From positions 498,606 through 562,605 of the forward strand of contig CP051234.1 of assembly GCA_017792465.1 (NCBI GenBank): DNA of 64,000 bases, written 5' to 3'. Below, in pieces: positions 8,754 through 49,721 of the stretch. Made by a program: the position numbers and the translations under genes. This DNA comes from Filomicrobium sp. GTDB taxonomy: Bacteria > Pseudomonadota > Alphaproteobacteria > Rhizobiales > Hyphomicrobiaceae. Numbering within the stretch: the first letter of the stretch is position 1; each line of letters opens with the position of its first letter. The notes beneath the pieces are model-generated. The model saw only the letters and a list, made by a program, of their open reading frames with translations. It was not told the DNA's origin and ran no database searches.

Positions 8754-9977
8754 TCAGCGCTGTGCGGCTTCCTTGAAGACGGCGTAGAACTCCTGAGCCC
8801 CGGAATTCTTGACGTTCTCGTCCATACGTTTTGACAGCTTTCTGAGAAGGTCTTTGGATGTGCCGTCGCGCACGATGGTGTTGCGCTCATAGCCGCGGCG
8901 GGAAAAGAAATTCACGGTCGGCATTCTCAGACCGACGGACGTCATCATTTCCAATCCCGTTCCAGGACCGGCGAGGTTCATGAGCTCAAGCTCGGTCGGA
9001 CCGATGTCGGGGCGACCGGCGCGCCTGGCGATATCGTGAATGCCTTTGAGTTTGATGACCTGCAGCCAAGGACCGATGTCCCCGTCGATGTTGATGGGGT
9101 GGATGCCCATCCCCGGTCCGGTTTTGGCAAAGGACTGATGCGCCGACCAGCGGTGCGGCACGCGCTTGACGCGGGCGATCATGCGTTTGAGTGCGGTGAT
9201 CTTTGTTTTTAGCCGGCTGCTGCGGGTTTTCGAGATCGATGGTTCGGCGGCCAGCTCTTCAAGTCGTTTGAGGAATTTGCGTCCGTGCTTTTGCAGTTCA
9301 TTGACGGAGTTTGCGGCCAGCAGCTGGGCATACCCCAACGCCGATGAAATGGGTCTACCTGTGCGGCGGATGGGATGAATTCCCGCCTGCATATCGGCGG
9401 TGCCGAGGCCGCTTGTTTCTAAGGCATAGACGCGAACGACCTGATCTGAGTTCATGCCCAGGCGCAAGGCTTCGGTGGCATAGCGTTTTTTGAACTCACG
9501 CTCGGAAATGCGCTCAGGAATGAACCCGTAATGCTTCTTGGCGGCCTTCATATAATCGTCGAGACCGGGGATGGTGTAGCGCTTGGTTTTCTTTTTTGTC
9601 TTTGGCTTGTCGGCGTTTAGGTAGGCATTCCAAGCTTTAGCAAGTGATTTCGGCAAGTATGGTCCGTCGTACTTGGGGGGATAGCCGTCGACGTAGTCTT
9701 TCTGGGTTATCACCTTGCCCTTTTTTCTCTTGGAGCGGCGTGTTCTGCGCTTCGATTCCACCTTGGCCCAGAAGGCATCGGCATCGGCTTCGTAGAAGGT
9801 ACGGGCTTTGAGATAGTCCTGGAAGGTCTGCTTGTCTTTGGCCGACAGGGTTTCCATGAAGCCGTTGGCGTCGCGGCGGGCTTCGGCGGAAATGGCGCTG
9901 AAGAGCAACGCGACAAGCGCGACGGCCAGAAGGAGGGATTGAGTTCGGAAAAGTGCGTTTGTATTTGGGATTATCAT
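8754..9977 (-). CDS. Secreted basic protein, possibly lysozyme-like
   Basis: 407 residues from ATG 9977, chosen because it directly precedes a signal peptide (LLLAVALVALLFSAISAEA, about 15-33). The mature protein is very basic, with Lys/Arg clusters around 60-75 and 115-125. The region with YALETSGLGTADMQAG followed by SALGYAQLLAANSV resembles the catalytic-Glu and Gly-Tyr/Gln blocks of lytic transglycosylases, so a peptidoglycan-acting enzyme is a reasonable guess but not established. Convergent with the DUF2147 gene and divergent from the Nudix gene. Confidence 0.6.
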   Translation of the reverse strand: MIIPNTNALFRTQSLLLAVALVALLFSAISAEARRDANGFMETLSAKDKQTFQDYLKARTFYEADADAFWAKVESKRRTRRSKRKKGKVITQKDYVDGYPPKYDGPYLPKSLAKAWNAYLNADKPKTKKKTKRYTIPGLDDYMKAAKKHYGFIPERISEREFKKRYATEALRLGMNSDQVVRVYALETSGLGTADMQAGIHPIRRTGRPISSALGYAQLLAANSVNELQKHGRKFLKRLEELAAEPSISKTRSSRLKTKITALKRMIARVKRVPHRWSAHQSFAKTGPGMGIHPINIDGDIGPWLQVIKLKGIHDIARRAGRPDIGPTELELMNLAGPGTGLEMMTSVGLRMPTVNFFSRRGYERNTIVRDGTSKDLLRKLSKRMDENVKNSGAQEFYAVFKEAAQR

Positions 9978-10221
9978 GCCGCCGGTCAGTCTTTCGTAAG
10001 TTGCTGCGTATGGCAAACGTCATACCTTGAACTTGTGACTTTGCGTCTGCGCCTTAATCTCAGATTGCGCACAAAGCCTCGAAGATGTGCGGAAATTTTG
10101 ACGATTACAGTTTGTTGGGCCACTTACTCTCGGTGCAAGTCCGCATGCCATGGTATTTGGGTCGCGCAGGCTATATCTAGCCTTTACTTGATATGGCAGA
10201 GAAGTATTGAGGTCCAAGCCC

Positions 10222-10869
10222 TTGGGAGCAGAGCCAACAAACGATTGGGCGCAGAACGAAGAGCAACTGCGGGGTCTGGCACGCGAAAAGCTTCATGCGC
10301 AGCCGCCGGTCCTTGAGAGCACGGGGGCGAGCGACTTCGATCTCAATCCTGGCAGTGAAACTGCTGATCCGGCTGTCCGGCGGCGCAAAGCTGCGGTTTT
10401 GATCCCGGTTGTTCTTGGCGAAACGCTTTCCGTCATTCTGACGATGCGCACCTCGCACCTGTCTTCGCATGCGGGACAAATCGCGTTTCCAGGCGGCAAG
10501 CTCGATCAGGGCGAAGGGGTTCTTGATACGGCACTGCGGGAAGCCGAGGAAGAGATTGGGCTATCGCGCTCATTCGTCGAGCCGATCGGCTATTTGGATT
10601 GGTACCGGACGCGGTCGGGTTTTCTCGTCAGCCCCGTTGTGGCGTTTATCCGGCCAGGCTTTGAGATCCGGGGCAATCCGGCGGAGGTGGACGACGTGTT
10701 CGAAGTGCCGCTGTCGTTCTTGATGGACGGGGCAAACCATGCCACTCACCAGCGTCAGGTGCGCGGCGAAGTCAGGTCGTTTTATGCCATGCCATATGGC
10801 GAGCGTTATATCTGGGGTGCGACGGCGGGTATGATCAAAAATTTCTACGATAAGCTGAGACCCGAATGA
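10222..10869 (+). CDS. Nudix hydrolase, CoA-pyrophosphatase type
   Basis: Expected to hydrolyse a nucleoside-diphosphate-linked compound such as CoA. The Nudix box runs from GGKLDQGEG through REAEEEIGL, about residues 91-114. It is preceded by RTSHLSSHAGQIAFPGGK, which matches the block specific to the NudL/YeaB CoA-diphosphatase group. There is no ATG: I choose the TTG at 10222 (215 residues), with GAGG eight bases upstream. A TTG at 10207 is also in frame. Its stop overlaps the next start (ATGA), so it is translationally coupled to the DUF6111 gene and then to the CCA enzyme. Confidence 0.87.
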   Translation: MGAEPTNDWAQNEEQLRGLAREKLHAQPPVLESTGASDFDLNPGSETADPAVRRRKAAVLIPVVLGETLSVILTMRTSHLSSHAGQIAFPGGKLDQGEGVLDTALREAEEEIGLSRSFVEPIGYLDWYRTRSGFLVSPVVAFIRPGFEIRGNPAEVDDVFEVPLSFLMDGANHATHQRQVRGEVRSFYAMPYGERYIWGATAGMIKNFYDKLRPE

Positions 10870-39392: not shown

Positions 39393-39704
39393 GCCTACAT
39401 AGCCAAAGTTGGCACTTCCGCGCTTAGCATCACGCTAGACAAAGCACATGTGGAAGCCGCTGGTCCCTTAATTGGGGCTGGCGGTTTTCTCTGTTTTTTA
39501 TGTGTTCTAGTGCACATAAGAATCGGTCCGGTCATTCAAATGACTGTGTCCGGAACCCCACGAGATGGGCTCCACCCAAAAGTTAGTCACAATGTCTCGC
39601 AAGAAGGTCCATCTGGCGCAGTTGCAGATGCGTCAGAGATATGACAGCCTTGGTGACTGATTTAAATGGGGTTAGGCGGAACCTGTGAACGAGGGGGGAC
39701 ACTC
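39393..39704. other. Intergenic region PRC-barrel gene / matrixin gene
   Basis: About 310 bp. The frame at 39450-39644 has no ribosome site and no family resemblance. No hairpin terminator or RNA gene was recognised. Confidence 0.5.
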
Positions 39705-40472
39705 GTGCGCACATTGGTGATTATCGCGCTGCTTGGAACGGCGCTTGCGAGCGCGGCGAAAGCGGCCGACGCACCCTACGACCTTCTGGAAATCGATAAC
39801 TGGATCGTCAAATGGGGTGACGAAGCATTGGGTTCCGGCGCGGTCGTGACTTATGCGTATGCTGACGCGAAACGTTCGTTTCCGAAGGCTCGGAACTGCC
39901 AGGACATCGCACCACTCAGCAAACTGCTGAAAGCGACTGGCTTTGACGAGGCGAGGTTCCGCCAGGAAACCGAACGCGCGTTAGCTGCCTGGGAGAAAGC
40001 TGCGAACATCAAATTTGTTCCCGCAAAAGTGGGGCAAGACGCAGATATTTTGATCGGCACGCAGGGGCGACCGCGGGGACGGGCCTTTGCGAACGTCAGT
40101 CTTCCCGAAAGCCGCCGTCTGGCAGCGATCCAGAAAAGCCGCCAACTGGCGTCCGCTCAAGAAAGCCGCCAGCTCAGCGCCATTGTCGACACCGGTTCAG
40201 CAAGGCGCCGTCACAAGCCGTTGGGGATCGCCCGCATCAAGAAATCGCTGGTTTGTCTCAATCCGTTGCAGAGATGGAAAATCGGCCGCGATGGCGACGG
40301 CGATGTCTACGATCTTAATTACACCTTGATGCACGAGATCGGTCACGCGATTGGGCTTGATCACGCCGGCTCAAGGGGACAGCTGATGTCGTTTCGCTAC
40401 CAGGACCATCTGATGGGCTTGCAGGCCGGAGATATCGCCGGCGTGCGACGGCTCTACGGTTCGGCGGAATAA
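39705..40472 (+). CDS. Secreted matrixin-like zinc metalloprotease
   Basis: 255 residues starting at GTG 39705, supported by GAGGGGGG seven bases upstream. Signal peptide about 1-20. The extended zinc site HEIGHAIGLDH gives His210, Glu211, His214 and His220; the Met-turn Leu-Met-Ser-Phe is at 227-230, placing it in the metzincin/matrixin group. Upstream, residues 136-162 hold three nine-residue repeats (SRRLAAIQK, SRQLASAQE, SRQLSAIVD) in an otherwise normal protein. Convergent with the CoA-transferase gene. Confidence 0.85.
   Translation: MRTLVIIALLGTALASAAKAADAPYDLLEIDNWIVKWGDEALGSGAVVTYAYADAKRSFPKARNCQDIAPLSKLLKATGFDEARFRQETERALAAWEKAANIKFVPAKVGQDADILIGTQGRPRGRAFANVSLPESRRLAAIQKSRQLASAQESRQLSAIVDTGSARRRHKPLGIARIKKSLVCLNPLQRWKIGRDGDGDVYDLNYTLMHEIGHAIGLDHAGSRGQLMSFRYQDHLMGLQAGDIAGVRRLYGSAE
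40110..40190 (+). repeat. Three tandem 27-bp units inside the protease gene
   Basis: Units start at 40110, 40137 and 40164, each beginning AGCCGCC and encoding Ser-Arg-(Arg/Gln)-Leu-(Ala/Ser). They keep the frame and have diverged at silent and replacement sites, so the duplication is not very recent. Confidence 0.75.
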
Positions 40473-40514: not shown

Positions 40515-41714
40515 TCAGTCGGATGAAACCGCCGCGCCCGAAGTAAGCATCGTGTCGATTTCATCATTGCTGAAACCGGCTTGAGAGAGGACCTCGCGCG
40601 TGTGCTCGCCTTTGAGGGGAGCTGGGCGCGTAATGCCGCCGGGAGTTTCGGAGAACTTCACAGGCAGGCCGATGGTTTTAACTTCGCCCGCAACGGGGTG
40701 AGTGGTTGAAACGATCATCTCACGGGCGATGGCCTGAGGATCGGCATGCATTTCTGTAATCGAGAGCACCGGACCTGCCGGAACGCCGCCTTTTTCGAAA
40801 ATTTGCAGCCACTCGTCGGTGGATTTTTGGGTCGTGATCTCCGACAGGAGGTCGGCGAGGACTTCGCGGTTTTCTATTCGTGTCGCGTTTGAGGAGAAGC
40901 GCGGGTCATCGTTCAAATGTTCGGCGTTGAGCAAGGCCAGCATGGCCTCCCAGTTTTTCTGGTTTGCCGCACCGATATTGATCCAGCCGTCTTTGGTTTT
41001 GAAAGATTGGTAAGGGGCGTTGAGCGGATGGGCGGATCCCATCGCTTGCGGGGATTTGCCGGTCGCGAACGCAATGGCCGATTGCCAATAGGTCTGCGTG
41101 ATGGCGGCTTCGAAAAGGGACGTGTCGACCTTCTGCCCCTGACCCGTTTTGAGCTTGTTGGCATAGGCGGCAGCAATCCCCATAGCCGCGACGATCCCGG
41201 CGGTGATGTCGGAGACTGGCGCGCCGACCTTCACGGGTTCGCGGCCGTGGCCTTCCCCGGTGATCGACATTAGGCCGGACATGCCTTGGGCGATGAGATC
41301 GAAGCCGCCGCGATGCGCGTAGGGGCCTGTGCGACCGAAGCCTGAGACTTCGCAATAGATGAGGCCGGGGTTGACCTCGCGCAGGGTCTCGTATCCGAGG
41401 CCCAATTTCTCCATCGTGCCCATGCGGTAGTTTTCGATGAGAACGTCGGCGTCCTTGATGAGGCGCTTCAGGGCGTTCTTGCCGTCGTCGGTCTTGAGGT
41501 CGAGGACGATGCCACGCTTGTTGCGGTTCATCATCATGAAGGCGGCGCTCTCGCCTTCGATCGTCGGCGGAACGAAGCGGCGGGTGTCATCGCCGTTTAA
41601 CTTCTCGACCTTGATGACGTCAGCGCCCATATCGGCGAGCATCAAACCGGCGACGGGGCCGGCCATGATGTGAGCCAGTTCAATGACGCGGCATCCCTGC
41701 AGCGGTCCGGACAT
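40515..41714 (-). CDS. Class III (CaiB/BaiF) CoA-transferase
   Basis: Moves CoA between carboxylic acids; members include formyl-CoA:oxalate and succinyl-CoA:malate or citramalate transferases. 399 residues from ATG 41714 (GAGG eight bases upstream). RVIELAHIMAGPVAGLMLAD begins the family fold. The catalytic Asp139 is in HRGGFDLIAQGMSG. The acid specificity cannot be told from sequence. Last gene of the aminotransferase-TRAP run, 65 bp after dctM, so it probably serves the same substrate. Confidence 0.87.
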   Translation of the reverse strand: MSGPLQGCRVIELAHIMAGPVAGLMLADMGADVIKVEKLNGDDTRRFVPPTIEGESAAFMMMNRNKRGIVLDLKTDDGKNALKRLIKDADVLIENYRMGTMEKLGLGYETLREVNPGLIYCEVSGFGRTGPYAHRGGFDLIAQGMSGLMSITGEGHGREPVKVGAPVSDITAGIVAAMGIAAAYANKLKTGQGQKVDTSLFEAAITQTYWQSAIAFATGKSPQAMGSAHPLNAPYQSFKTKDGWINIGAANQKNWEAMLALLNAEHLNDDPRFSSNATRIENREVLADLLSEITTQKSTDEWLQIFEKGGVPAGPVLSITEMHADPQAIAREMIVSTTHPVAGEVKTIGLPVKFSETPGGITRPAPLKGEHTREVLSQAGFSNDEIDTMLTSGAAVSSD

Positions 41715-41779
41715 GGTTGGGTCCTCATTCAAGATGCCGCCGCGGCAATCGTTTTCAGCCAATCTCGGCGGCGAGGGTC

Positions 41780-43060
41780 CTAGCGGTAGAAGTATTCGAC
41801 CAGGAACATCGGGATGTCAGGCACGTAGGTGCACAGCAACAGGACGAACAGCAAGACGGCTACGAAGTAGACGTTGACCTTGGAGACTTCCCATATATTG
41901 GCTCTGGCTACTGCACATGACGTTATGAGCACACTGGCAACCGGCGGGGTCTGCTGGCCGATTGCGAGGTTCAGCGTCACGACGAGCCCGAAGTGAACAG
42001 GATCGATGCCGGAGGCCTGGATCAACGGAATGACGATTGGGATGACCAGGATGATGGCGGCGGCTGAGTGCAGGAAGAAGCCGATAATCAGGAAGAAGAC
42101 GTTGAGGATCGCGAGGATCACGTACTTGTTGGTCGTGAAGTCGAGGATGCCCTGAGCGAGCTGCTGAGGGACCTGCGCGCGCGTGAGGAATCCGCCCATC
42201 AGGACGCTGGCAGCGACCAGCAGCATAACAACAGCAGTCTGCATGCCGCCATCGAGCATGGCGCGGCGCAAATGGCTGAAGTTGAATTCCCGATACCACA
42301 GACCGATGAGCAGCGCGGCGATGACGGCGAGGCCTGCGGCTTCGGTTGCGGTGACCCAGCCGCCGAAGATGCCGCCCAGAATGATTACCGGAAGCGTGAA
42401 CGCCGGCAGGGCATCCATGAACGTCTCGAAGACGTGCTTAGTGTTGAAAGCTTCTTCGACGGGTAAGTTGTATTTCACGGCGAACAGGTAAGCGACGAGC
42501 ATCAGACCGGCCGCACCGATCAAGCCGGGGACGACGCCGGCGACGAAGAGCTGCTCAACGGAGGTGTTGGCAGATGTCGCGTAAAGGATCATCGGGATCG
42601 ACGGCGGGATGATGATGGCCAGCGATGCGGATGAGGATGTCACGGCGGCGGCCAATGGGGCGGAGTAGCCGCGCTTTTTCATCTGCGGAATGAGGATCGA
42701 GCCGAGAGCTGCCACGTCGGCGACGGCCGATCCGGAGATTTCCGCGAAGAACAGCGAGACGCCGATGTTGACCATGGCGAGACCGCCGCGGACGAAGCCG
42801 ATTAGCGCGGAGACGAAGTTGATCAGGCGGTCGGTGATGCCGCCGGCGTTCATCAAGGCTCCGGCCAGGACGAACATCGGAATGGCGATGAGCGAGAATT
42901 TCGTCGACCCGTCGTACATGTCGAGCGCGACGGTCACGAGGCTGTCGGGGCCTTCGGTCGCGAGCAGGCCGACGATCGCGGAAACAGCCAGCGCGACAGC
43001 GATCGGCACGTTGATGCAGATGAGGACGAGGAGGGCGACGAAGCAAAGCAGGATCAGCAT
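41780..43060 (-). CDS. dctM: TRAP transporter large permease, DctM type
   Basis: Na+-coupled 12-helix subunit of a tripartite ATP-independent periplasmic transporter. 426 residues, the usual size. Recognised from INVPIAVALAVSAIVGLL, SLIAIPMFVLAGALMNAGG, GSAVADVAALGSILIPQMKK and the C-terminal TPPVASVLITSCAVARANIW. Starts one base after the dctQ stop. Confidence 0.95.
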   Translation of the reverse strand: MLILLCFVALLVLICINVPIAVALAVSAIVGLLATEGPDSLVTVALDMYDGSTKFSLIAIPMFVLAGALMNAGGITDRLINFVSALIGFVRGGLAMVNIGVSLFFAEISGSAVADVAALGSILIPQMKKRGYSAPLAAAVTSSSASLAIIIPPSIPMILYATSANTSVEQLFVAGVVPGLIGAAGLMLVAYLFAVKYNLPVEEAFNTKHVFETFMDALPAFTLPVIILGGIFGGWVTATEAAGLAVIAALLIGLWYREFNFSHLRRAMLDGGMQTAVVMLLVAASVLMGGFLTRAQVPQQLAQGILDFTTNKYVILAILNVFFLIIGFFLHSAAAIILVIPIVIPLIQASGIDPVHFGLVVTLNLAIGQQTPPVASVLITSCAVARANIWEVSKVNVYFVAVLLFVLLLCTYVPDIPMFLVEYFYR

Positions 43061-43061
43061 G

Positions 43062-43604
43062 TCAGTTGGCTCCTGCCTTCTTCAGCTCGGTTTCGACTTC
43101 TTCTTCGATTTCGGCATGTTCGAGCGATTTGCCGTGGGCCGTCATGCGCCAGTATTCCGGCAGGCTCAAAAGCTCGCAGATAATGAACAGGACCGCGCCA
43201 ATGGGAATGACGGATTGCGTGAACTGGACAGGAACCCAGGTCAGCGAGACGAGATAGTCACCGGTGAGGACCTCGAGGACTTTCATGCCGGCCCAGGCCA
43301 TGATGACAAAGAAGCCGATGACTACGGTTTCAGCGATGATCAAGGCGATCATGCGCGGATAGACGGGCAATGCGAGCAGGACGGAATCAAAGCCTATATG
43401 GCGGCGCTTCAAGGCCGCCAGTGCTGCCCCGTAATAGGTGATCCACGACAAGCAGATGGCTGCGACCTCGTCGTACCAGGAAAGTGAATCGCCAGCGATA
43501 CGGAACAGAACGGCGACGATGACGATGACGGTCAAGAGCACCATCAGCAAAATCGTGACCCATTCGAGTACGACTTCGAAAAAGCTTCTCAGGCTGGCGA
43601 GCAT
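43062..43604 (-). CDS. dctQ: TRAP transporter small permease, DctQ type
   Basis: Four-helix subunit that pairs with DctM. 180 residues. Contains the family pattern LVWVT-like start (EVVLEWVTILLMVLLTVIVI), SLSWYDEVAAICLSWITYYG and HIGFD. The ribosome site is weak. It follows two hairpins in the gap after dctP. The C-terminus is unusually charged (HAEIEEEVETELKKAG). Confidence 0.92.
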   Translation of the reverse strand: MLASLRSFFEVVLEWVTILLMVLLTVIVIVAVLFRIAGDSLSWYDEVAAICLSWITYYGAALAALKRRHIGFDSVLLALPVYPRMIALIIAETVVIGFFVIMAWAGMKVLEVLTGDYLVSLTWVPVQFTQSVIPIGAVLFIICELLSLPEYWRMTAHGKSLEHAEIEEEVETELKKAGAN

Positions 43605-43642
43605 TTACTTGGGACTCGAGATTGTGGTGGAGGGTCGAGGCT

Positions 43643-43697
43643 GCCACCGATCTTGTCGGTGGCGGGAAGAACAGGCCGGCATCACACCGACCTGTTC
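43643..43697 (-). repeat. Two hairpins between dctP and dctQ
   Basis: Hairpin 1: GCCACCGA (43643-43650) / TCGGTGGC (43656-43663), 5-base loop. Hairpin 2: GAACAGG (43669-43675) / CCTGTTC (43691-43697). Neither is followed by a T tract. In transporter operons such elements commonly protect the binding-protein mRNA so that it outnumbers the permease messages. Confidence 0.65.
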
Positions 43698-43729
43698 CAG
43701 ACGCGAGTGCAGTTTCGCGATGGCGCGGG

Positions 43730-44707
43730 TTACTTTGCCAGGGACTGAACCGTATCGATCAGCTCCTTGCCGCCTTTAACTGACGAAGCGAATTCGTCAT
43801 AGATCGGCTTGGAAGCTTCGATGAAGGCTTCATTGTCTGCCTTGTTGACGGTAATGCCGCCCTTCTTGAGGTTTTCGAGAAGTTCGGTTTCAAGGCGGGC
43901 GGCTTCCTTGTAGACGAAGTCCTGACCGGACTTGCCGCACTGGCGCAGAGCCGCTTGGACGTCTTCTGGAAGTTTTGCGAAGTTTTTCTTCGAAACGAGC
44001 ACGTAAGCCGGTGTGTAAACGTGGCCCGTGATCGAGAGGTACTTCTGGACTTCCTGGAATTTCGCCGACCAGATCTGAGCGTATGGGTTTTCCTGGCCGT
44101 CAATCACCCCGGTTTTCAGCGCGGTGAAGACTTCCGAGAATGCCATCGGCGTCGGGTTGGCGCCGTAGAGCTTGAACATCTTGACGCGCCAGGCGCCTTT
44201 GGGCGTGCGCAGCTTCACGCCGGCCAGATCTTCAGGCTTGTTGATCGGGCGGGTGTTGTTGGTGATGTGACGGAAGCCGTTTTCGAACAATCCGATGATT
44301 TCGTAGCCCTTGGCGGCAACAGCCGGCTGCAGCACCTTATCCATCAGCGCTTCCTGGACGCGGCGCATGTGATCGCGATCCTTGATGATGTAAGGCATCT
44401 CGAAGACACCGAATTCATCGGCAACCGACGACATCACCGATGATGGCAGGGAGAATGTGATCTGCCCAAGCTTGAGCTTCTGCAGCATCTCCTTGTCTTT
44501 GCCAAGCTGAGACGAGCCGAAGTTCTGGACTTCGGCCTTGTCGCCGAGAGCTTCGTTGGCGCAGCGGGCAAATTCGTTGGCGCTTGTTTCGAACAGTGAG
44601 CCCGGCTTGCCGACGTGACCAAACTTCAAGATCAGTTTGTCGGCGAGGGCTGGAGTGGCAAGCGATGCCAGGACGGCAGCGGTTGCAAGCAGTGTCGTGC
44701 GTTTCAT
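43730..44707 (-). CDS. dctP: TRAP transporter periplasmic solute-binding protein, DctP type
   Basis: Captures the substrate in the periplasm. 325 residues with signal peptide 1-22 and a strong GGGAGG ribosome site. Arg167 in GVKLRTPKG matches the conserved arginine that grips the substrate carboxylate in DctP proteins, so the substrate is probably an organic acid. Other family blocks: KFGHVGKPGSLFETSANEFA, GVFEMPYIIKD and TALKTGVIDGQENPYAQIW. Confidence 0.94.
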   Translation of the reverse strand: MKRTTLLATAAVLASLATPALADKLILKFGHVGKPGSLFETSANEFARCANEALGDKAEVQNFGSSQLGKDKEMLQKLKLGQITFSLPSSVMSSVADEFGVFEMPYIIKDRDHMRRVQEALMDKVLQPAVAAKGYEIIGLFENGFRHITNNTRPINKPEDLAGVKLRTPKGAWRVKMFKLYGANPTPMAFSEVFTALKTGVIDGQENPYAQIWSAKFQEVQKYLSITGHVYTPAYVLVSKKNFAKLPEDVQAALRQCGKSGQDFVYKEAARLETELLENLKKGGITVNKADNEAFIEASKPIYDEFASSVKGGKELIDTVQSLAK

Positions 44708-44749
44708 CGTTTCCTCCCGATGTTATGGGCAGACCTTTTTAGGTCTTTA

Positions 44750-45940
44750 TTATTCTGCCGCGACCGCTGTGCCCGATCCGTTGCCGGTCAACACGTCGAT
44801 TGCAGCTTGCGCACCACCTGCCCGATGAGGCACGCCGGCTTTTCTTAGTCCCATTTCAACACCCGACAGCGTTCCCATCAACATGAGATCGTTGAAGTCG
44901 CCGAGATGGCCTATTCTGAACACGCGTCCGGCGAGCTTTGCCAGCCCGTTCCCCAGCGACATGTTGTAGTTTTCAAGAACTGTCTTACGGAATTCGTCAG
45001 CGTTATGACCTTCCGGCATAAGAACGGCCGTCAGGGAGCCTGAATAGTGGCGCGGGTCCTGGCACAGGACTTCGAGGCCCCAGGCTTCGACGGCGGCGCG
45101 GGTGGCAGCGCCGTGGTTTGCATGGCGCTTGAAGACGTTGTCGAGGCCTTCTTCATGCAGCATGGCGATGGCTTCAACGAGGCCGTAGAGCAGATTTGTT
45201 GCTGGCGTATAAGGGAAGATTGCCTTTTCGTTGGCCGAGATCATTTCGCCCCAGGCCCAATACGAGCGGGGCAATTTCGCGGACTTCGTGGCTTCGAGGG
45301 CTTTGTCGCTGACCGCGTTAAATGACAGGCCGGGCGGCAACAGGAGGCCCTTTTGCGAGCCGCCGACGGTGACATCGACGCCCCATTCATCGTGGCGATA
45401 GTCAATCGATCCGAGCGATGAGATCGTGTCGACCATCAAAAGGGCTGGGTGGCCGGTGGCGTCCATCGCCTTTCTGACGTCTTCGATGCGGGTCGCGCAA
45501 CCGGTCGAGGTTTCGTTATGGACGACGCAGACGGCTTTGATGTCTTTTGCGGTGTCGGCGCGCAAGCGTTCTTCGATCTTTTGCGGATCGGCGCCACTGC
45601 GCCAGTCGCCTTGGATGAACTCGGGCTGCAGGCCCAAACGTTCGGCCAGTCCCTTCCAAAGCGTCGAGAAATGGCCGGTCTCAAACATCAAGACGCGATC
45701 GCCGGGTGACAGCGTGTTGACGAGGGCGGCTTCCCAGGCGCCAGTGCCGGAGGCGGGAAAGATGACGACGGGATTTTTGGTCTTGAAGATGGTCTTGATG
45801 CCGTCGAGAGCCTTGCGGCTCATTTCAGCAAATGCCGGTCCGCGATGGTCGATCGTCGGCATGTCCATGGCGCGAAGAACGCGATCAGGGACGTTGGTCG
45901 GTCCGGGGATCTGCAGGAAATGACGTCCGGGCATGTGCAT
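44750..45940 (-). CDS. Serine-glyoxylate-type aminotransferase (class V)
   Basis: PLP enzyme expected to use glyoxylate as amino acceptor with serine, alanine or aspartate as donor. 396 residues from ATG 45940 (GGAGGG seven bases upstream); the frame is open to 46090 without a signal. PLP lysine Lys197 in GGSQKGLLLPPGLSF, the variant typical of serine-glyoxylate aminotransferases of methylotrophs; PASGTGAWEAAL near 62-73 binds the cofactor phosphate. No other serine-cycle genes are in the window. First gene of the run with dctPQM, divergent from the dehydrogenase. Confidence 0.88.
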   Translation of the reverse strand: MHMPGRHFLQIPGPTNVPDRVLRAMDMPTIDHRGPAFAEMSRKALDGIKTIFKTKNPVVIFPASGTGAWEAALVNTLSPGDRVLMFETGHFSTLWKGLAERLGLQPEFIQGDWRSGADPQKIEERLRADTAKDIKAVCVVHNETSTGCATRIEDVRKAMDATGHPALLMVDTISSLGSIDYRHDEWGVDVTVGGSQKGLLLPPGLSFNAVSDKALEATKSAKLPRSYWAWGEMISANEKAIFPYTPATNLLYGLVEAIAMLHEEGLDNVFKRHANHGAATRAAVEAWGLEVLCQDPRHYSGSLTAVLMPEGHNADEFRKTVLENYNMSLGNGLAKLAGRVFRIGHLGDFNDLMLMGTLSGVEMGLRKAGVPHRAGGAQAAIDVLTGNGSGTAVAAE

Positions 45941-46047
45941 GGGAACCCTCCAGCGCTGCTCGACGTGAAGCTTGCACGACGGCATTCTTCTTCTTGGAGC
46001 CAGAGCTTGAGGCGGCACCTCTTGCCTTCCTGGCGCATTCGTAATTA

Positions 46048-46062
46048 TGTATTTTGAATACA
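46048..46062. promoter_or_regulatory. Candidate GntR operator between divergent catabolic units
   Basis: TGTATT-TTG-AATACA is a perfect 6-bp inverted repeat with a 3-base spacer. It lies in the 140-bp gap between the aminotransferase and dehydrogenase starts. Size and symmetry suit the dimeric FCD-GntR regulator encoded downstream of the dehydrogenase. Confidence 0.5.
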
Positions 46063-46080
46063 AATATGAAAGGCTTGTCA

Positions 46081-49047
46081 ATGGCGGCAATCACTCCGGC
46101 TTCGAACCGGCGGCTCAAGGAACGCTTGGAGCGTGACGTCGAGGGCGAGGTTTTGTTCGATCGGTTCAGCCGGGGGCGGTACGCAACGGATGCTTCCGTC
46201 TACCAGATGATGCCGGATGCCGTCGTAATCCCGAAAACGTTTGCCGATGTCGAAGCGGTGCTGGGTATTGCGCGCGAAGAAGGCGTGCCGATTCTGGCGC
46301 GCGGGGGTGGGACATCGCAGTGCGGGCAGACGGTCAATGAAGCGATCGTCATCGATTTTTCGCGCCACCTGAACAAGGTCGTCGAGTTTGATGAAGAGGC
46401 GCAGACGGCGGTCGTCGAGCCCGGTCTCGTGCTCGATCATTTGAACGAGCAACTGAAGGCACATGGGCTTTGGTATCCGGTCGATGTATCGACCGGCTCG
46501 CGGGCGACGATCGGGGGCATGACCGCCAACAATTCATGCGGGTCGAGGTCGATCCGCTATGGCACATCGCGGGATAACGTGTTGGCGATTGATGCGCTGA
46601 TGGCCGATGGCGGCCGGGCGCACTTCGGCGTTCTTGGGCGCAATAACGGCAGTCCGCCCGTGCCGCCGGATCTGGTTAACGATCTTCTCGATCTAGGCCG
46701 TCGCGAGGCGGACGAGATCCGCGCGCGGTTCCCCGATATCATCCGGCGGGTCGGCGGCTATAACATCGACGCGCTGGTGCCGGGGGCGGGCGACATCAAC
46801 CTTGCCCACTTGCTGGTCGGCTCGGAGGGGACGCTGGCGATCAGCGAGAGGATCAAGCTGAAGCTCTCGCCGGTGTTGAAGCAAAAGGTTCTGGGCGTTT
46901 GCCATTTCCCGACCTTCTACGAAGCGATGGATGCGGCCCAGCACATCGTCAAGCTTGATCCGACAGCCGTTGAGCTGGTCGATAGCAACATCATCCGGCT
47001 CGGCCGTGAGATCGCGATGTTCCGGCCTGTCGTCGATGCGTTCGTCAAGGGCGATCCGGCAGCACTGCTGATCGTTGAATTCGCCGAGCCTGACCAGAAC
47101 GAGAATTTGCGCCGGCTGGAAGCGCTTGATGGTTTGATTGCCGATCTTGGGTTCCGCTGGGGCGATCTGGGCAAGAAGGACGGCGGGGTCGTCAAGGCGA
47201 CCGATCCGGCGTTCCAGGCCAAGATCATCGAGGTGCGCAAGCAGGGCCTCAACATCGTCATGTCGATGAAGTCGGAGGGCAAGCCGGTCTCTTTCGTCGA
47301 GGATTGTGCGGTTCAGCTTGAAGACCTTGCCGAATATACCGACCGGCTGACCAAGATCTTCCACAAGTACGGCACCGACGGCACCTGGTATGCGCACGCT
47401 TCGGTGGGGACGCTGCACGTTCGGCCGGTTCTCAATTTGAAGCTCGACACCGATCTCAACGCGATGCGCTCAATCGCCGAAGAAGCTTTCGAGATGGTGC
47501 GCGAGTACAAGGGTTCGCACTCGGGCGAGCATGGCGACGGCATCGCGCGCTCGGAATTCCACCGCGTGATGTTCGGCGACCGGATGGTGGAAGACTTCGA
47601 ATGGGTCAAAGACCGGTTCGATGCTGACGGTGTTCTTAATCCCGGCAAGATCGTGCGGCCGCCGCGGATGAACGATCGTATCGTTCTGCGTTACGGACCC
47701 GACTACCAGGTCGAAGACTTCGATAGCGCGTTTGTCTGGCCTGATCACTATGGCGCGGGCCGCGGGTTCCAGGGCGCGGTTGAGATGTGCAACAACAATG
47801 GCGCTTGTCGGAAGCTGCGCGACGGGGTGATGTGTCCCTCCTACCGGGTCACCCGCAATGAACGCGACAGTGTGCGCGGGCGGGCGAACTCGCTGCGTCT
47901 TGCGATGTCCGGACAGCTTGGCTCGCACGCATTCACATCCGATGCGATGGCCGAGACGCTCTCGCTTTGCGTTTCGTGCAAAGCCTGCCGACGAGAATGT
48001 CCGACCGGCGTCGACATGGCGAAGATGAAGATCGAGGTGCTGGCTCAGCGCGCGAAAAAGCGCGGTCTGTCGTTGCGGGATCGGTTCGTCGCCTACCTTC
48101 CGCATTATGCCGCGCGGGCCTCTCGCGTTCCGTTCCTGATGAATTTGCGGGATGTCATCCCGGGTGTGGCCCGGCTCTCTGACATGGCTCTGGGCCTGAG
48201 TGCCCAGCGCACGCTGCCGAAGTGGTCGGGGAAGCCTTATCAAGGTCGCGTGCAATCGGGATCATCCGAAAAGGCAGACGTTCTGCTATTTGCGGATACG
48301 TTCAATCGCTATTTCGAACCGGAAAACCTCGACGCTGCAGCCGCGGTTTTGGGCCGGGCCGGAATTAATTATGCGGATGCCCAGCCCGTCAGCGAAGATG
48401 GCAAGCGGCCGTTATGCTGCGGGCGAACGTTCCTCGCTGCTGGTCTTGTCGATCAGGCCCGCGCAGAGATGGCGCGGACAGTTGCGGCGATCCGGCCAAC
48501 GCTTGAACAAGGCGGCTACGTCGTCGGGCTTGAACCCTCCTGCGTCATGACATTCCGCGACGAAGCCTTGGGTCTTCTTGGAGAAGCCTGGAGTGAAGAC
48601 CTCGCCGGGCGCGTCTTGATGTTTGAAGAATACCTTGCCATGCGGCATGACGCTGGCGAGCTCGACCTGCCGCTTGGTCCGTTGGGTGGGGACAACAAGG
48701 CGTTGCTGCACGGGCATTGCCATCAAAAATCGTTCAATGCGGTTGGGCCGGTGCAAAAGTTGCTCGGGCTTGTTCCTGAACTTGAGACGGAACTGATCCA
48801 ATCGAGTTGCTGCGGGATGGCGGGTGCGTTCGGTTACCAGTCGGAGAGCTATGATGTCTCGATGGCTATGGCCGAGCTTTCGCTGCTGCCTAAAGTCCGG
48901 GATGCGAATTCCGATACGTTGATCGTTGCCGATGGCACGTCCTGCCGGCATCAGATTGCCGATGGCGCCGCGCGGCACGCACAGCATGTTGCAAAGGTCT
49001 TGCTGGCATCGTCTGATGCTGCACTAGGAAAAACTGATACTCGTTGA
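46081..49047 (+). CDS. FAD/Fe-S 2-hydroxyacid dehydrogenase, YdiJ-like
   Basis: Large fused flavin and iron-sulfur oxidoreductase. 988 residues from ATG 46081 (AAAGG nine bases upstream); ATG 46066 and TTG 46054 are in frame but overlap the candidate operator. The FAD-binding PCMH domain is at about 45-260 (ILARGGGTSQCGQ, GGMTANNSCGSRSIRYGTS). FAD-oxidase C-domain to about 540 with HSGEHGDGIARSEF. Fe-S region at about 570-650, with CNNNGACRKLRDGVMCPSY and CVSCKACRRECPTG. C-terminal cysteine-rich CCG modules (HGHCHQKS near 877, SSCCGMAGAFGY near 908). E. coli YdiJ has this architecture and oxidises D-2-hydroxyglutarate; glycolate and D-lactate are alternatives. Confidence 0.88.
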   Translation: MAAITPASNRRLKERLERDVEGEVLFDRFSRGRYATDASVYQMMPDAVVIPKTFADVEAVLGIAREEGVPILARGGGTSQCGQTVNEAIVIDFSRHLNKVVEFDEEAQTAVVEPGLVLDHLNEQLKAHGLWYPVDVSTGSRATIGGMTANNSCGSRSIRYGTSRDNVLAIDALMADGGRAHFGVLGRNNGSPPVPPDLVNDLLDLGRREADEIRARFPDIIRRVGGYNIDALVPGAGDINLAHLLVGSEGTLAISERIKLKLSPVLKQKVLGVCHFPTFYEAMDAAQHIVKLDPTAVELVDSNIIRLGREIAMFRPVVDAFVKGDPAALLIVEFAEPDQNENLRRLEALDGLIADLGFRWGDLGKKDGGVVKATDPAFQAKIIEVRKQGLNIVMSMKSEGKPVSFVEDCAVQLEDLAEYTDRLTKIFHKYGTDGTWYAHASVGTLHVRPVLNLKLDTDLNAMRSIAEEAFEMVREYKGSHSGEHGDGIARSEFHRVMFGDRMVEDFEWVKDRFDADGVLNPGKIVRPPRMNDRIVLRYGPDYQVEDFDSAFVWPDHYGAGRGFQGAVEMCNNNGACRKLRDGVMCPSYRVTRNERDSVRGRANSLRLAMSGQLGSHAFTSDAMAETLSLCVSCKACRRECPTGVDMAKMKIEVLAQRAKKRGLSLRDRFVAYLPHYAARASRVPFLMNLRDVIPGVARLSDMALGLSAQRTLPKWSGKPYQGRVQSGSSEKADVLLFADTFNRYFEPENLDAAAAVLGRAGINYADAQPVSEDGKRPLCCGRTFLAAGLVDQARAEMARTVAAIRPTLEQGGYVVGLEPSCVMTFRDEALGLLGEAWSEDLAGRVLMFEEYLAMRHDAGELDLPLGPLGGDNKALLHGHCHQKSFNAVGPVQKLLGLVPELETELIQSSCCGMAGAFGYQSESYDVSMAMAELSLLPKVRDANSDTLIVADGTSCRHQIADGAARHAQHVAKVLLASSDAALGKTDTR

Positions 49048-49058
49048 GGGATTTTTCG

Positions 49059-49721
49059 ATGGGCACACCGTCCATGGCTCCGATTGAGCGGCGCGCGCTG
49101 CATGAAGATCTAGCCGACCAGTTGCGCCGGGCCATCATCCACGGCGAGCTGCGCCCGGGGGCAAAGATCTCTGAGAAGGTTCTTTGCGAGCAGTTCGGCG
49201 TCTCGCGTACGCCCATTCGCGAGGCGTTGAAGATCCTGTCTACCGAAGGCCTCGTGCAACTGATGCAGAACCGTGGGGCATCGGTGACGGATGTCACCTG
49301 GGAAGATCTGCAGGACGCCTTTCCTGTGATGGGAGCCCTGGAGGCTCTTGCCGGCGAGCTGGCCTGCGCCAATGCCACCGATGCTCAAATCGAACGGGCC
49401 AAGGTTCTGCAGGCGCGCATGGTGTCGATGTTCAAAAAGGGCGATCTCAAAGGCTATTTCCGGGTCAATGAGGAGATCCACCAGCTCATTCTCGATGCGG
49501 CCGGGAATGCGATGTTGCCGCGGTTGATGCGGACGGTTTCGCTTCAAGTGCGCCGGGCGCGCTATATGGCGAACCTGTCGACCGAGCGCTGGCAGCAGGC
49601 GACCGAGGAGCATGAGGAGATTCTGGCTGCCTGGGTCGCGCGCGACAGCCAGCGGCTGGGTCAGCTCCTGAAGCAGCATCTGGCAAACAAGCTCATGGCG
49701 TTGGAGAAGAACTTCGCCTGA
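49059..49721 (+). CDS. GntR-family regulator, FCD subfamily
   Basis: Ligand-responsive transcription factor. 220 residues from ATG 49059 (GAGGG eight bases upstream), 11 bp after the dehydrogenase stop; a TTG at 49044 overlaps that stop. The winged helix at about 15-78 contains LHEDLADQLRRAIIHGELRPG and FGVSRTPIREALKILSTEGL. The FCD domain shows the metal-binding pattern NEEIHQLI, TEEHEEILAAW and LLKQHLANK. FCD members usually sense small carboxylates, fitting local control of the surrounding transport and oxidation genes. Confidence 0.9.
   Translation: MGTPSMAPIERRALHEDLADQLRRAIIHGELRPGAKISEKVLCEQFGVSRTPIREALKILSTEGLVQLMQNRGASVTDVTWEDLQDAFPVMGALEALAGELACANATDAQIERAKVLQARMVSMFKKGDLKGYFRVNEEIHQLILDAAGNAMLPRLMRTVSLQVRRARYMANLSTERWQQATEEHEEILAAWVARDSQRLGQLLKQHLANKLMALEKNFA

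Follow-up and report, generated by a model that had tools for sequence, protein, structure and literature searches.

Which compound is handled by a group of seven genes that joins a TRAP (tripartite ATP-independent periplasmic) transporter to a fused dehydrogenase, an aminotransferase and a coenzyme A (CoA) transferase? The genes occupy positions 40515 to 49721 of a 64,000-nucleotide stretch of Filomicrobium sp. (GenBank assembly GCA_017792465.1, contig CP051234.1, positions 498,606 to 562,605), in the following termed the window. The minus strand carries the order aminotransferase-dctP-dctQ-dctM-CoA-transferase, the plus strand the order dehydrogenase-gntR. An earlier reading of the letters, here called the original prediction, had proposed that a 2-hydroxyacid such as glycolate is imported, oxidised and aminated by this island. 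The evidence presented here comprises gene content, linkage, residue conservation and palindrome enrichment. According to it, the island is probably one regulated catabolic unit for the import, oxidation and transamination of a small 2-hydroxycarboxylate. Because the linkage is conserved and genes of the beta-hydroxyaspartate cycle adjoin the island in relatives, a module leading from hydroxyacid via oxoacid to amino acid near the glyoxylate node is the best reading.

Conservation of the island

The island is a conserved unit and a widespread combination of known families. In a sample of 199 genomes of the same order, including the own genome, relatives of the dehydrogenase (E<=1e-100) were found in 56 and relatives of the aminotransferase (1e-90) in 115. 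The aminotransferase lies within 4 kb of a dehydrogenase of about 50% identity or more in 40 of 44 genomes. Without the own genome these are 39 of 43 others, so that the co-occurrence named by the original prediction as its own test was borne out. The count comprises the best hits from 44 of the 56 dehydrogenase genomes and ignores second copies; genomes with 41% identity or less (G030, G073, G092, G129, G139, G149, G150, G183, G187, G190 and G198) and G032, with a 56% fragment at a contig end, were excluded. Among the four exceptions, G157 and G161 carry the two genes on separate contigs, G002 is cut by a contig end at which a partial aminotransferase is visible (locus L160), and G169 has a BhcA (683.6 bits, cut-off 650) nearby in place of the aminotransferase of the island's clade.

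A similar picture was obtained for the fetched loci. With a limit of 12 kb and at least 50% identity, the dehydrogenase has an aminotransferase nearby in 73 of the 80 named loci; the corresponding figures are 29 of 33 for the order loci and 37 of 60 for the class loci. DctP and DctM are present as well in 13 of the 80, 14 of the 33 and 6 of the 60. The counts for the named loci are biased, since these are 80 of at least 584 relatives and mostly stem from Bradyrhizobium. From the order loci, 5 of 38 (L144, L146, L153, L154 and L155) were dropped, which had been retrieved with the aminotransferase as the centre and are without a dehydrogenase; L125 was scored as lacking the aminotransferase, although its locus map shows one. 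The class loci represent 60 of 65 extra-order genomes with a dehydrogenase, with G295, G420, G429, G487 and G569 left out. Some contigs are repeated among the loci (L052/L122 and L054/L128), and L069 and L196 are near-identical.

Other alphaproteobacteria show the gene order CoA-transferase–(crotonase)–DctM–DctQ–DctP–aminotransferase<>dehydrogenase–GntR as well, and it is also found on plasmids. It is annotated in full on a Limimaricola plasmid, and the island of Tateyamaria omphalii is likewise plasmid-borne. Since the island recurs in many other bacteria, it is regarded as a real unit. A genome of 1.2 Mb and 99% completeness (G403) contains dctP-Q-M, a crotonase of the subtype ECHb and the CoA-transferase in a row (L253, C1:538000-557900), followed by the dehydrogenase on the opposite strand and an aminotransferase divergent from the latter. 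The fetched stretch has a GC (guanine plus cytosine) content of 32%, and no gntR was recognised in the island stretch of this genome, for which a SAR11- or HIMB59-like origin may be guessed. Two more genomes of its family, G295 and G569, carry the dehydrogenase. A literature search for the gene combination (titles and abstract openings, few subscription journals covered) yielded no description, in agreement with the original prediction, to whose author the combination was not known as a described pathway.

Gene arrangement and divergent region

The seven genes were found where they had been placed and in the families named for them, all with scores above the Pfam or TIGRFAM cut-offs. The divergent arrangement proposed before was also found, as two units on opposite strands, and could be refined to five genes on the minus strand and two on the plus strand. 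The minus-strand unit comprises the aminotransferase (44750-45940), dctP (43730-44707), dctQ (43062-43604), dctM (41780-43060) and, as its last gene, the CoA-transferase (40515-41714). The gaps between the first four of these are 42, 125 and 1 bp, while the gap between dctM and the CoA-transferase is 17 or 65 bp, as set by the choice of the CoA-transferase start (ATG at 41714, open frame extending to 41762). On the plus strand, the dehydrogenase (46081-49047) is followed by an FCD-type GntR regulator (49044-49721; PF07729 89.5, cut-off 24.3; PF00392 72.8, cut-off 27). The gntR frame opens inside the dehydrogenase stop, and its first ATG (49059) lies 11 bp past that stop.

The likely starts of the aminotransferase (ATG 45940, minus) and the dehydrogenase (ATG 46081, plus), each with a purine-rich stretch directly upstream, enclose a divergent region of 140 bp (45941-46080). 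It contains the palindrome TGTATTTTGAATACA (46048-46062), which is identical in the Filomicrobium metagenome-assembled genome (MAG) at locus L042. In a non-redundant set of 69 divergent regions, 41 contain an AT-rich palindrome of 14 bases in which no more than one position is mismatched; for shuffles (one per sequence) the figure was 13 of 69, and for control stretches 8 of 69. The most frequent form, TTATGAATTCATAA, occurred within three mismatches in 27 divergent regions, 1 shuffle and no control stretch. The plain palindrome count is the safer measure, because TTATGAATTCATAA was both selected and counted in one set of sequences. This conservation suggests that the palindrome is a candidate operator through which GntR may control both transcripts.

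The GC content of the island (0.585-0.606 in 2-kb steps) is similar to that of the remainder of the window. A scan for promoters and terminators gave no clear excess over shuffles, with 2 promoters compared to 2.7, and 14 terminators compared to 10.6 (standard deviation 3.2). Adjoining the island, positions 39666-40472 of the window hold a frame with the zinc-protease motif HEIGHAIGLDH, which we take to be matrixin-like.

Dehydrogenase

The GlcD-like and the GlcF/GlpC-like part of the dehydrogenase (PF02913, PF01565, PF13183 and PF02754) form one chain. In an alignment with YdiJ and GlcD, its active-site set is kept, with the Arg in VRK, the two His in AHASVGTLH and the Glu-His in GEHGDG. The Arg, His-x6-His and Glu-His of the D-2-hydroxyacid dehydrogenase superfamily (LDHD, D2HGDH, GlcD and YdiJ) are thus present, and the predicted role as an oxidiser of 2-hydroxyacids was supported at the level of these family residues. 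In LDHD and D2HGDH, the equivalent residues are responsible for binding the hydroxyl group, the C1-carboxylate and the metal (PMC10589216, PMC7801405). At the position of Asn443 in D2HGDH and Ile407 in LDHD, the dehydrogenase has an Arg (LHVRP), as has YdiJ, while GlcD has a Leu. This pocket Arg would argue for a polar side group, unless it is simply characteristic of the fused family. The scores against the models of YdiJ (NF049975, 487 bits, cut-off 1350) and GlcD (TIGR00387, 198.9, cut-off 567.9) are both below the cut-off. The earlier description as YdiJ-like and fused agrees with the FAD/Fe-S fusion and the common motifs. Of the acids tested on YdiJ of E. coli, in which glycolate is not mentioned, only D-2-hydroxyglutarate is reported as a substrate (PMC9504171).

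Transporter

All three TRAP components were identified as the DctP type, with DctP at 235.9 bits (TIGR00787, cut-off 175.05; N-terminus signal-peptide-like), DctQ, the small permease, at 69.1 (PF04290, cut-off 28.3) and DctM, the large permease, at 380.1 (TIGR00786, cut-off 268.45). In DctP, the residues R146, R167, N207, D71, W173 and R174 are invariant in 28 sequences. The Arg/Arg/Asn ligand set is therefore present, and the conserved Arg by which DctP had been described as a carboxylate binder holds good by sequence. The carboxylate of the ligand is bound in TRAP proteins by two Arg and one Asn, with an acidic residue in contact with a hydroxyl group (PMC11668362). By our reading of the alignment, matched by eye, D71 would be this acidic residue. 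The nearest structures in the PDB, both by sequence and by predicted fold (mean predicted local distance difference test, pLDDT, of 82), are 4nq8 and 4pdd with 35% identity. We assume these to be the structures that hold pantoate and erythronate; a literature search on the PDB codes of the nearest structures gave nothing relevant. Homologues of the isethionate-binding TRAP protein held pantoate or erythronate (PMC11668362).

Aminotransferase

The class-V aminotransferase (PF00266 80, cut-off 21.5) belongs to a separate clade, which is neither BhcA nor the serine-cycle SgaA. On the BhcA model (NF045640, cut-off 650) it scored 464.9, seven relatives of its clade scored 428-471, and the other copies of the own genome scored 460 and 581.2, the latter being the serine-cycle copy, to which the window protein is 50% identical. 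The BhcA proteins of G169 and Tateyamaria reached 683.6 and 729.3. In a FastTree phylogeny, the clade with the window protein and a 64% paralogue (L157) is separated from the serine-cycle copy and from the BhcA of both G169 and Tateyamaria. The tree was built from 41 of 176 sequences after thinning at 74% identity, from which selected members were exempt, and it was rooted on the three sequences outside the clade; therefore it shows separation and not the order of descent. The original prediction of a serine-glyoxylate-type enzyme was thus correct in so far as the protein is related to glyoxylate aminotransferases, while it branches apart from both SgaA and BhcA. Some members of the clade are located away from any dehydrogenase.

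A serine cycle was rejected as an explanation of the island, based on the separate branch of its aminotransferase and on the serine-cycle copy elsewhere in the genome. This copy (L158, C1:2537000-2556900) is accompanied by Mcl-, Mtk- and Ppc-type genes, a context that is serine-cycle-like and hence methylotroph-like. The 64% paralogue (L157, C1:4003000-4022900, at 9472-10752) faces another TRAP system, which differs from that of the island and is accompanied by an amidase; a HAD phosphatase adjoins the paralogue.

CoA-transferase and crotonase

The CoA-transferase belongs to class III (CaiB/BaiF type; PF02515 450.5, cut-off 23.3), and is below the cut-off of all 7 NCBIfam models matched (NF052585 373.3/750, NF008511 296.4/522 and NF041294 290.4/700 among them). 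In many relatives, dctM and the CoA-transferase are separated by a gene for a crotonase of about 259 residues, while the island of the window is without one. The position behind dctM was compared in 38 TRAP loci, a set that includes the window itself and counts a few contigs twice; it is occupied by a crotonase in 17, a CoA-transferase in 8, an HbpS-family gene in 3, a BhcB in 1 and another gene in 9. In the TRAP-less loci L054, L127, L128, L149 and L156, crotonase and CoA-transferase can directly follow the aminotransferase.

Among 91 crotonases, the main subtype is without both glutamates of hydratases, and ECHb keeps only the first; the positions (E144 and E164 of the rat enzyme) were matched by eye. 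The position behind dctM is taken by either of two subtypes, and a third one is found in Afipia-type loci. Since one or both glutamates are missing, no ordinary hydratase step can be assumed, and a role of the relatives' crotonase as an ordinary hydratase was rejected. The hydratases AcuH and AcuK require two glutamates (PMC5651017). The own genome contains a solitary crotonase (C1:2750275; L174, C1:2741000-2760900, at 9270-10046) that is 65% identical to the island crotonase of a relative, is missing both catalytic glutamates and has no CoA-transferase beside it. In other genomes, pairs of crotonase and CoA-transferase occur without an adjacent dehydrogenase (L175-L181).

Connection to the glyoxylate node

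Genes of the beta-hydroxyaspartate cycle adjoin the island in three relatives. In the Filomicrobium MAG (L042), BhcB (598.4, cut-off 550) and BhcC (644.8, just under the cut-off of 690) are located directly behind dctM. In Tateyamaria omphalii, annotated bhcA-B-C-D and bhcR adjoin the island, and in G169 both BhcB and BhcA are found beside dehydrogenase, TRAP transporter, crotonase and CoA-transferase. Further BhcC-like proteins occur in L058 (454.5, under the cut-off of 690) and L231 (46% identity), and a Caballeronia plasmid locus has an annotated DSD1-family enzyme. The window island itself was rejected as a beta-hydroxyaspartate cycle, based on the BhcA score of its aminotransferase, a best BhcB score in the own genome of 247 (cut-off 550) and no match for BhcC there.

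An HbpS-family gene (PF03928) is present within 12 kb in 55 of the 80 named loci, mostly of Bradyrhizobium and its kin. The glcG gene of E. coli, annotated as heme-binding, is part of the glc operon, and its product is 34% identical to the Tateyamaria neighbour. These neighbours are considered weak support for glycolate.

Other genes were observed near the pair of aminotransferase and dehydrogenase. In L170 an annotated 2-keto-4-pentenoate hydratase accompanies the pair, and weak relatives of this enzyme (35-39%) occur near it in L231, L202, L204 and L206; a Pfam scan of two such neighbours gave no match. L243 shows an acid-sugar context, with two enolase-superfamily enzymes of the mandelate racemase type and two TRAP systems.

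Proposed function and its alternatives

As suggested by the DctP residues, a small 2-hydroxycarboxylate would enter via the TRAP transporter. The fused FAD/Fe-S enzyme would oxidise it to the 2-oxoacid and pass the electrons through its iron-sulfur half, probably to quinone, and the aminotransferase would form an amino acid either from this oxoacid or from glyoxylate arising from it. The divergent GntR may adjust both transcripts at the intervening palindrome. The CoA-transferase, in relatives often accompanied by the non-ordinary crotonase, might handle a CoA thioester, either of this acid or of one linked to it, although no mechanism is supported for this step. The original prediction had suggested CoA activation of a related acid here, which would be a putative role. 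The general scheme of the original prediction was retained on the basis of the conserved unit, the residue sets and the adjacent cycle genes, while glycolate, its example of a substrate, is regarded as one candidate.

Several observations weigh against this scheme. In 23 of the 60 class loci no aminotransferase is near the dehydrogenase, a few of them being cut by contig ends. Members of the aminotransferase clade also occur where the dehydrogenase is absent, as in all six other genomes sampled from the same family (63-66% identity). Since none of these six showed a dehydrogenase at 1e-100, the distribution of the island is patchy. In some variants tripartite tricarboxylate transporters (TTT) or ATP-binding cassette (ABC) transporters replace the TRAP system, therefore not every variant need import the same compound. 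Tateyamaria retains BhcA besides the clade aminotransferase, and the frequency of BhcB among genomes with the dehydrogenase (2 of 69, adjacent in neither) is not raised over that of all genomes (13 of 385). The HbpS link was found in only 4 of the 33 order loci and 1 of the 60 class loci, and the HbpS-family protein of Bradyrhizobium locus L081 gave no hit with E. coli GlcG at 1e-3. The own genome has a separate glcDEF at about C1:94.4-98.8 kb, with GlcF above its cut-off (458.7/333) and GlcE (263.1/284) and GlcD (472.5/567.9) below. Matches to glcD (1e-140) were found in 25 of the 56 dehydrogenase genomes and 67 of the 143 others (Fisher p=0.87). This threshold was our own choice: none of the 199 genomes reaches the model cut-off, while 2 of 14 control genomes do. 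As the distribution of glcD is independent of the dehydrogenase, nothing points to a replacement of glcDEF by the island; at the threshold used, the dehydrogenase neither stands in for glcD nor goes along with it. The pocket Arg, as in YdiJ, also belongs to these points.

Within these limits, glycolate is the best single guess for the substrate, to be held tentatively, as it is more apt to be wrong than right. In a dedicated glycolate route, for which the same caution applies, the TRAP transporter would import glycolate, the fused enzyme would take the part of GlcDEF, and the aminotransferase would convert glyoxylate to glycine, with the beta-hydroxyaspartate cycle continuing in some relatives. 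Besides the three relatives with adjoining cycle genes and the HbpS-family neighbours, this would fit G169, where an island without the clade aminotransferase has a BhcA above the cut-off, the presence in a 1.2-Mb genome and the 31 of 56 dehydrogenase genomes without a glcD match at 1e-140. The glcDEF of the own genome, the missing anti-correlation between dehydrogenase and glcD and the Arg in place of the hydrophobic residue of GlcD speak against it, and so do the solved DctP-type relatives, which are reported to contain larger acids, e.g. pantoate and erythronate (PMC11668362). Pantoate and erythronate were themselves considered as possible substrates, for which the DctP relatives are the only basis. 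The more polar hydroxyacids (among them glycerate, tartrate, malate and tartronate) are together about as likely as glycolate, that is, somewhat short of an even chance. A polar or dicarboxylic 2-hydroxyacid such as tartrate, D-malate, D-glycerate or tartronate would yield a product that is transaminated directly, with glyoxylate and glycine only downstream; the oxidation envisaged leads from tartrate to oxaloglycolate and from glycerate to hydroxypyruvate. This reading also comes somewhat below even. It is in line with the glcDEF elsewhere in the own genome, the extra invariant Arg174 of DctP and, in L243, two enzymes of the mandelate racemase type close to the pair. The Arg of LHVRP, which is common to the D-2-hydroxyglutarate-active YdiJ of E. 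coli (PMC9504171), and the TTT transporters adjoining the pair in L058, L231, L232 and L239, for which most of the known ligands carry two groups of carboxylic or similar type (PMC5812351), point in the same direction. On the other hand, the Arg is present in every relative aligned and is perhaps a family trait. For tartrate, the L-amino product would not match the stereochemistry (2R,3S) of BhcB and BhcC. This speaks against a conversion of tartrate to 3-hydroxyaspartate, which was considered as a possible reaction of the island.

A further explanation is a scavenging or detoxifying operon for mixed hydroxyacids, in which the CoA-transferase, with or without crotonase, is an independent and often inserted module. 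The pairs of crotonase and CoA-transferase away from the dehydrogenase (L175-L181), the lone crotonase relative in the own genome, and the different crotonase subtypes in the slot after dctM and in Afipia-type loci would agree with such a module. However, a crotonase or CoA-transferase directly follows dctM in 25 of the 38 TRAP loci, and the pair directly follows the aminotransferase in the five TRAP-less loci. Since this placement is so regular, a chance insertion is unlikely, and the explanation as a whole is regarded as improbable. The import, oxidation and transamination of one small 2-hydroxycarboxylate by a single unit is the preferred reading.

Comparison with known systems

AcuN is a class III CoA-transferase, and the acrylate module AcuN/AcuK, with its enoyl-CoA hydratase, shows the same pairing of protein families as many relatives of the island. 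Chemistry of this acrylate type was considered for the CoA branch as a possibility; unlike AcuH and AcuK, the crotonases of the relatives are without one or both glutamates. The serine-glyoxylate aminotransferase of the serine cycle is of the same family as that of the island, which branches apart. YdiJ, the D-2-hydroxyglutarate dehydrogenase of E. coli, aligns with the dehydrogenase over nearly its full length and has common motifs, including LHVRP and KPxxFxED, while the identity is only 27% and the model score remains far below the cut-off. Naming the genes by their nearest models (YdiJ, BhcA and enoyl-CoA hydratase) would thus probably mislead. GlcDEF(G) is similar to the island in its homologous FAD and Fe-S parts and in the HbpS-family neighbours of many named relatives. 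In the island, however, the chain is fused, has 23% identity to E. coli GlcD and carries the pocket Arg instead of Leu.

Hydroxyacids such as glycolate comprise a large share of the carbon released by algae and plants. It is conceivable, though rather unlikely in all its parts, that the island represents a so far undescribed route by which an abundant hydroxyacid of the environment is assimilated, in parallel to the beta-hydroxyaspartate cycle and retained even in a streamlined 1.2-Mb alphaproteobacterium. Such a route would consist of TRAP import, fused quinone-linked oxidation, transamination by an enzyme of its own clade, and carbon entry via the CoA-transferase and a non-hydratase crotonase, perhaps retro-aldol or decarboxylating. 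A close counterpart is bhcABCD together with glcDEF of Paracoccus denitrificans, which likewise combines hydroxyacid oxidation with a glyoxylate-type class-V aminotransferase and whose cycle genes adjoin the island in the three relatives. Its oxidation step is under the control of GlcR, a GntR-family regulator of the FadR subfamily (PMC11323563). In contrast to this system, the island has a single fused dehydrogenase, an aminotransferase of another clade, a TRAP transporter and a CoA-transferase. As a hydroxyacid unit that is sometimes plasmid-borne, it would add a route with its own marker genes beside glcDEF and the beta-hydroxyaspartate cycle.

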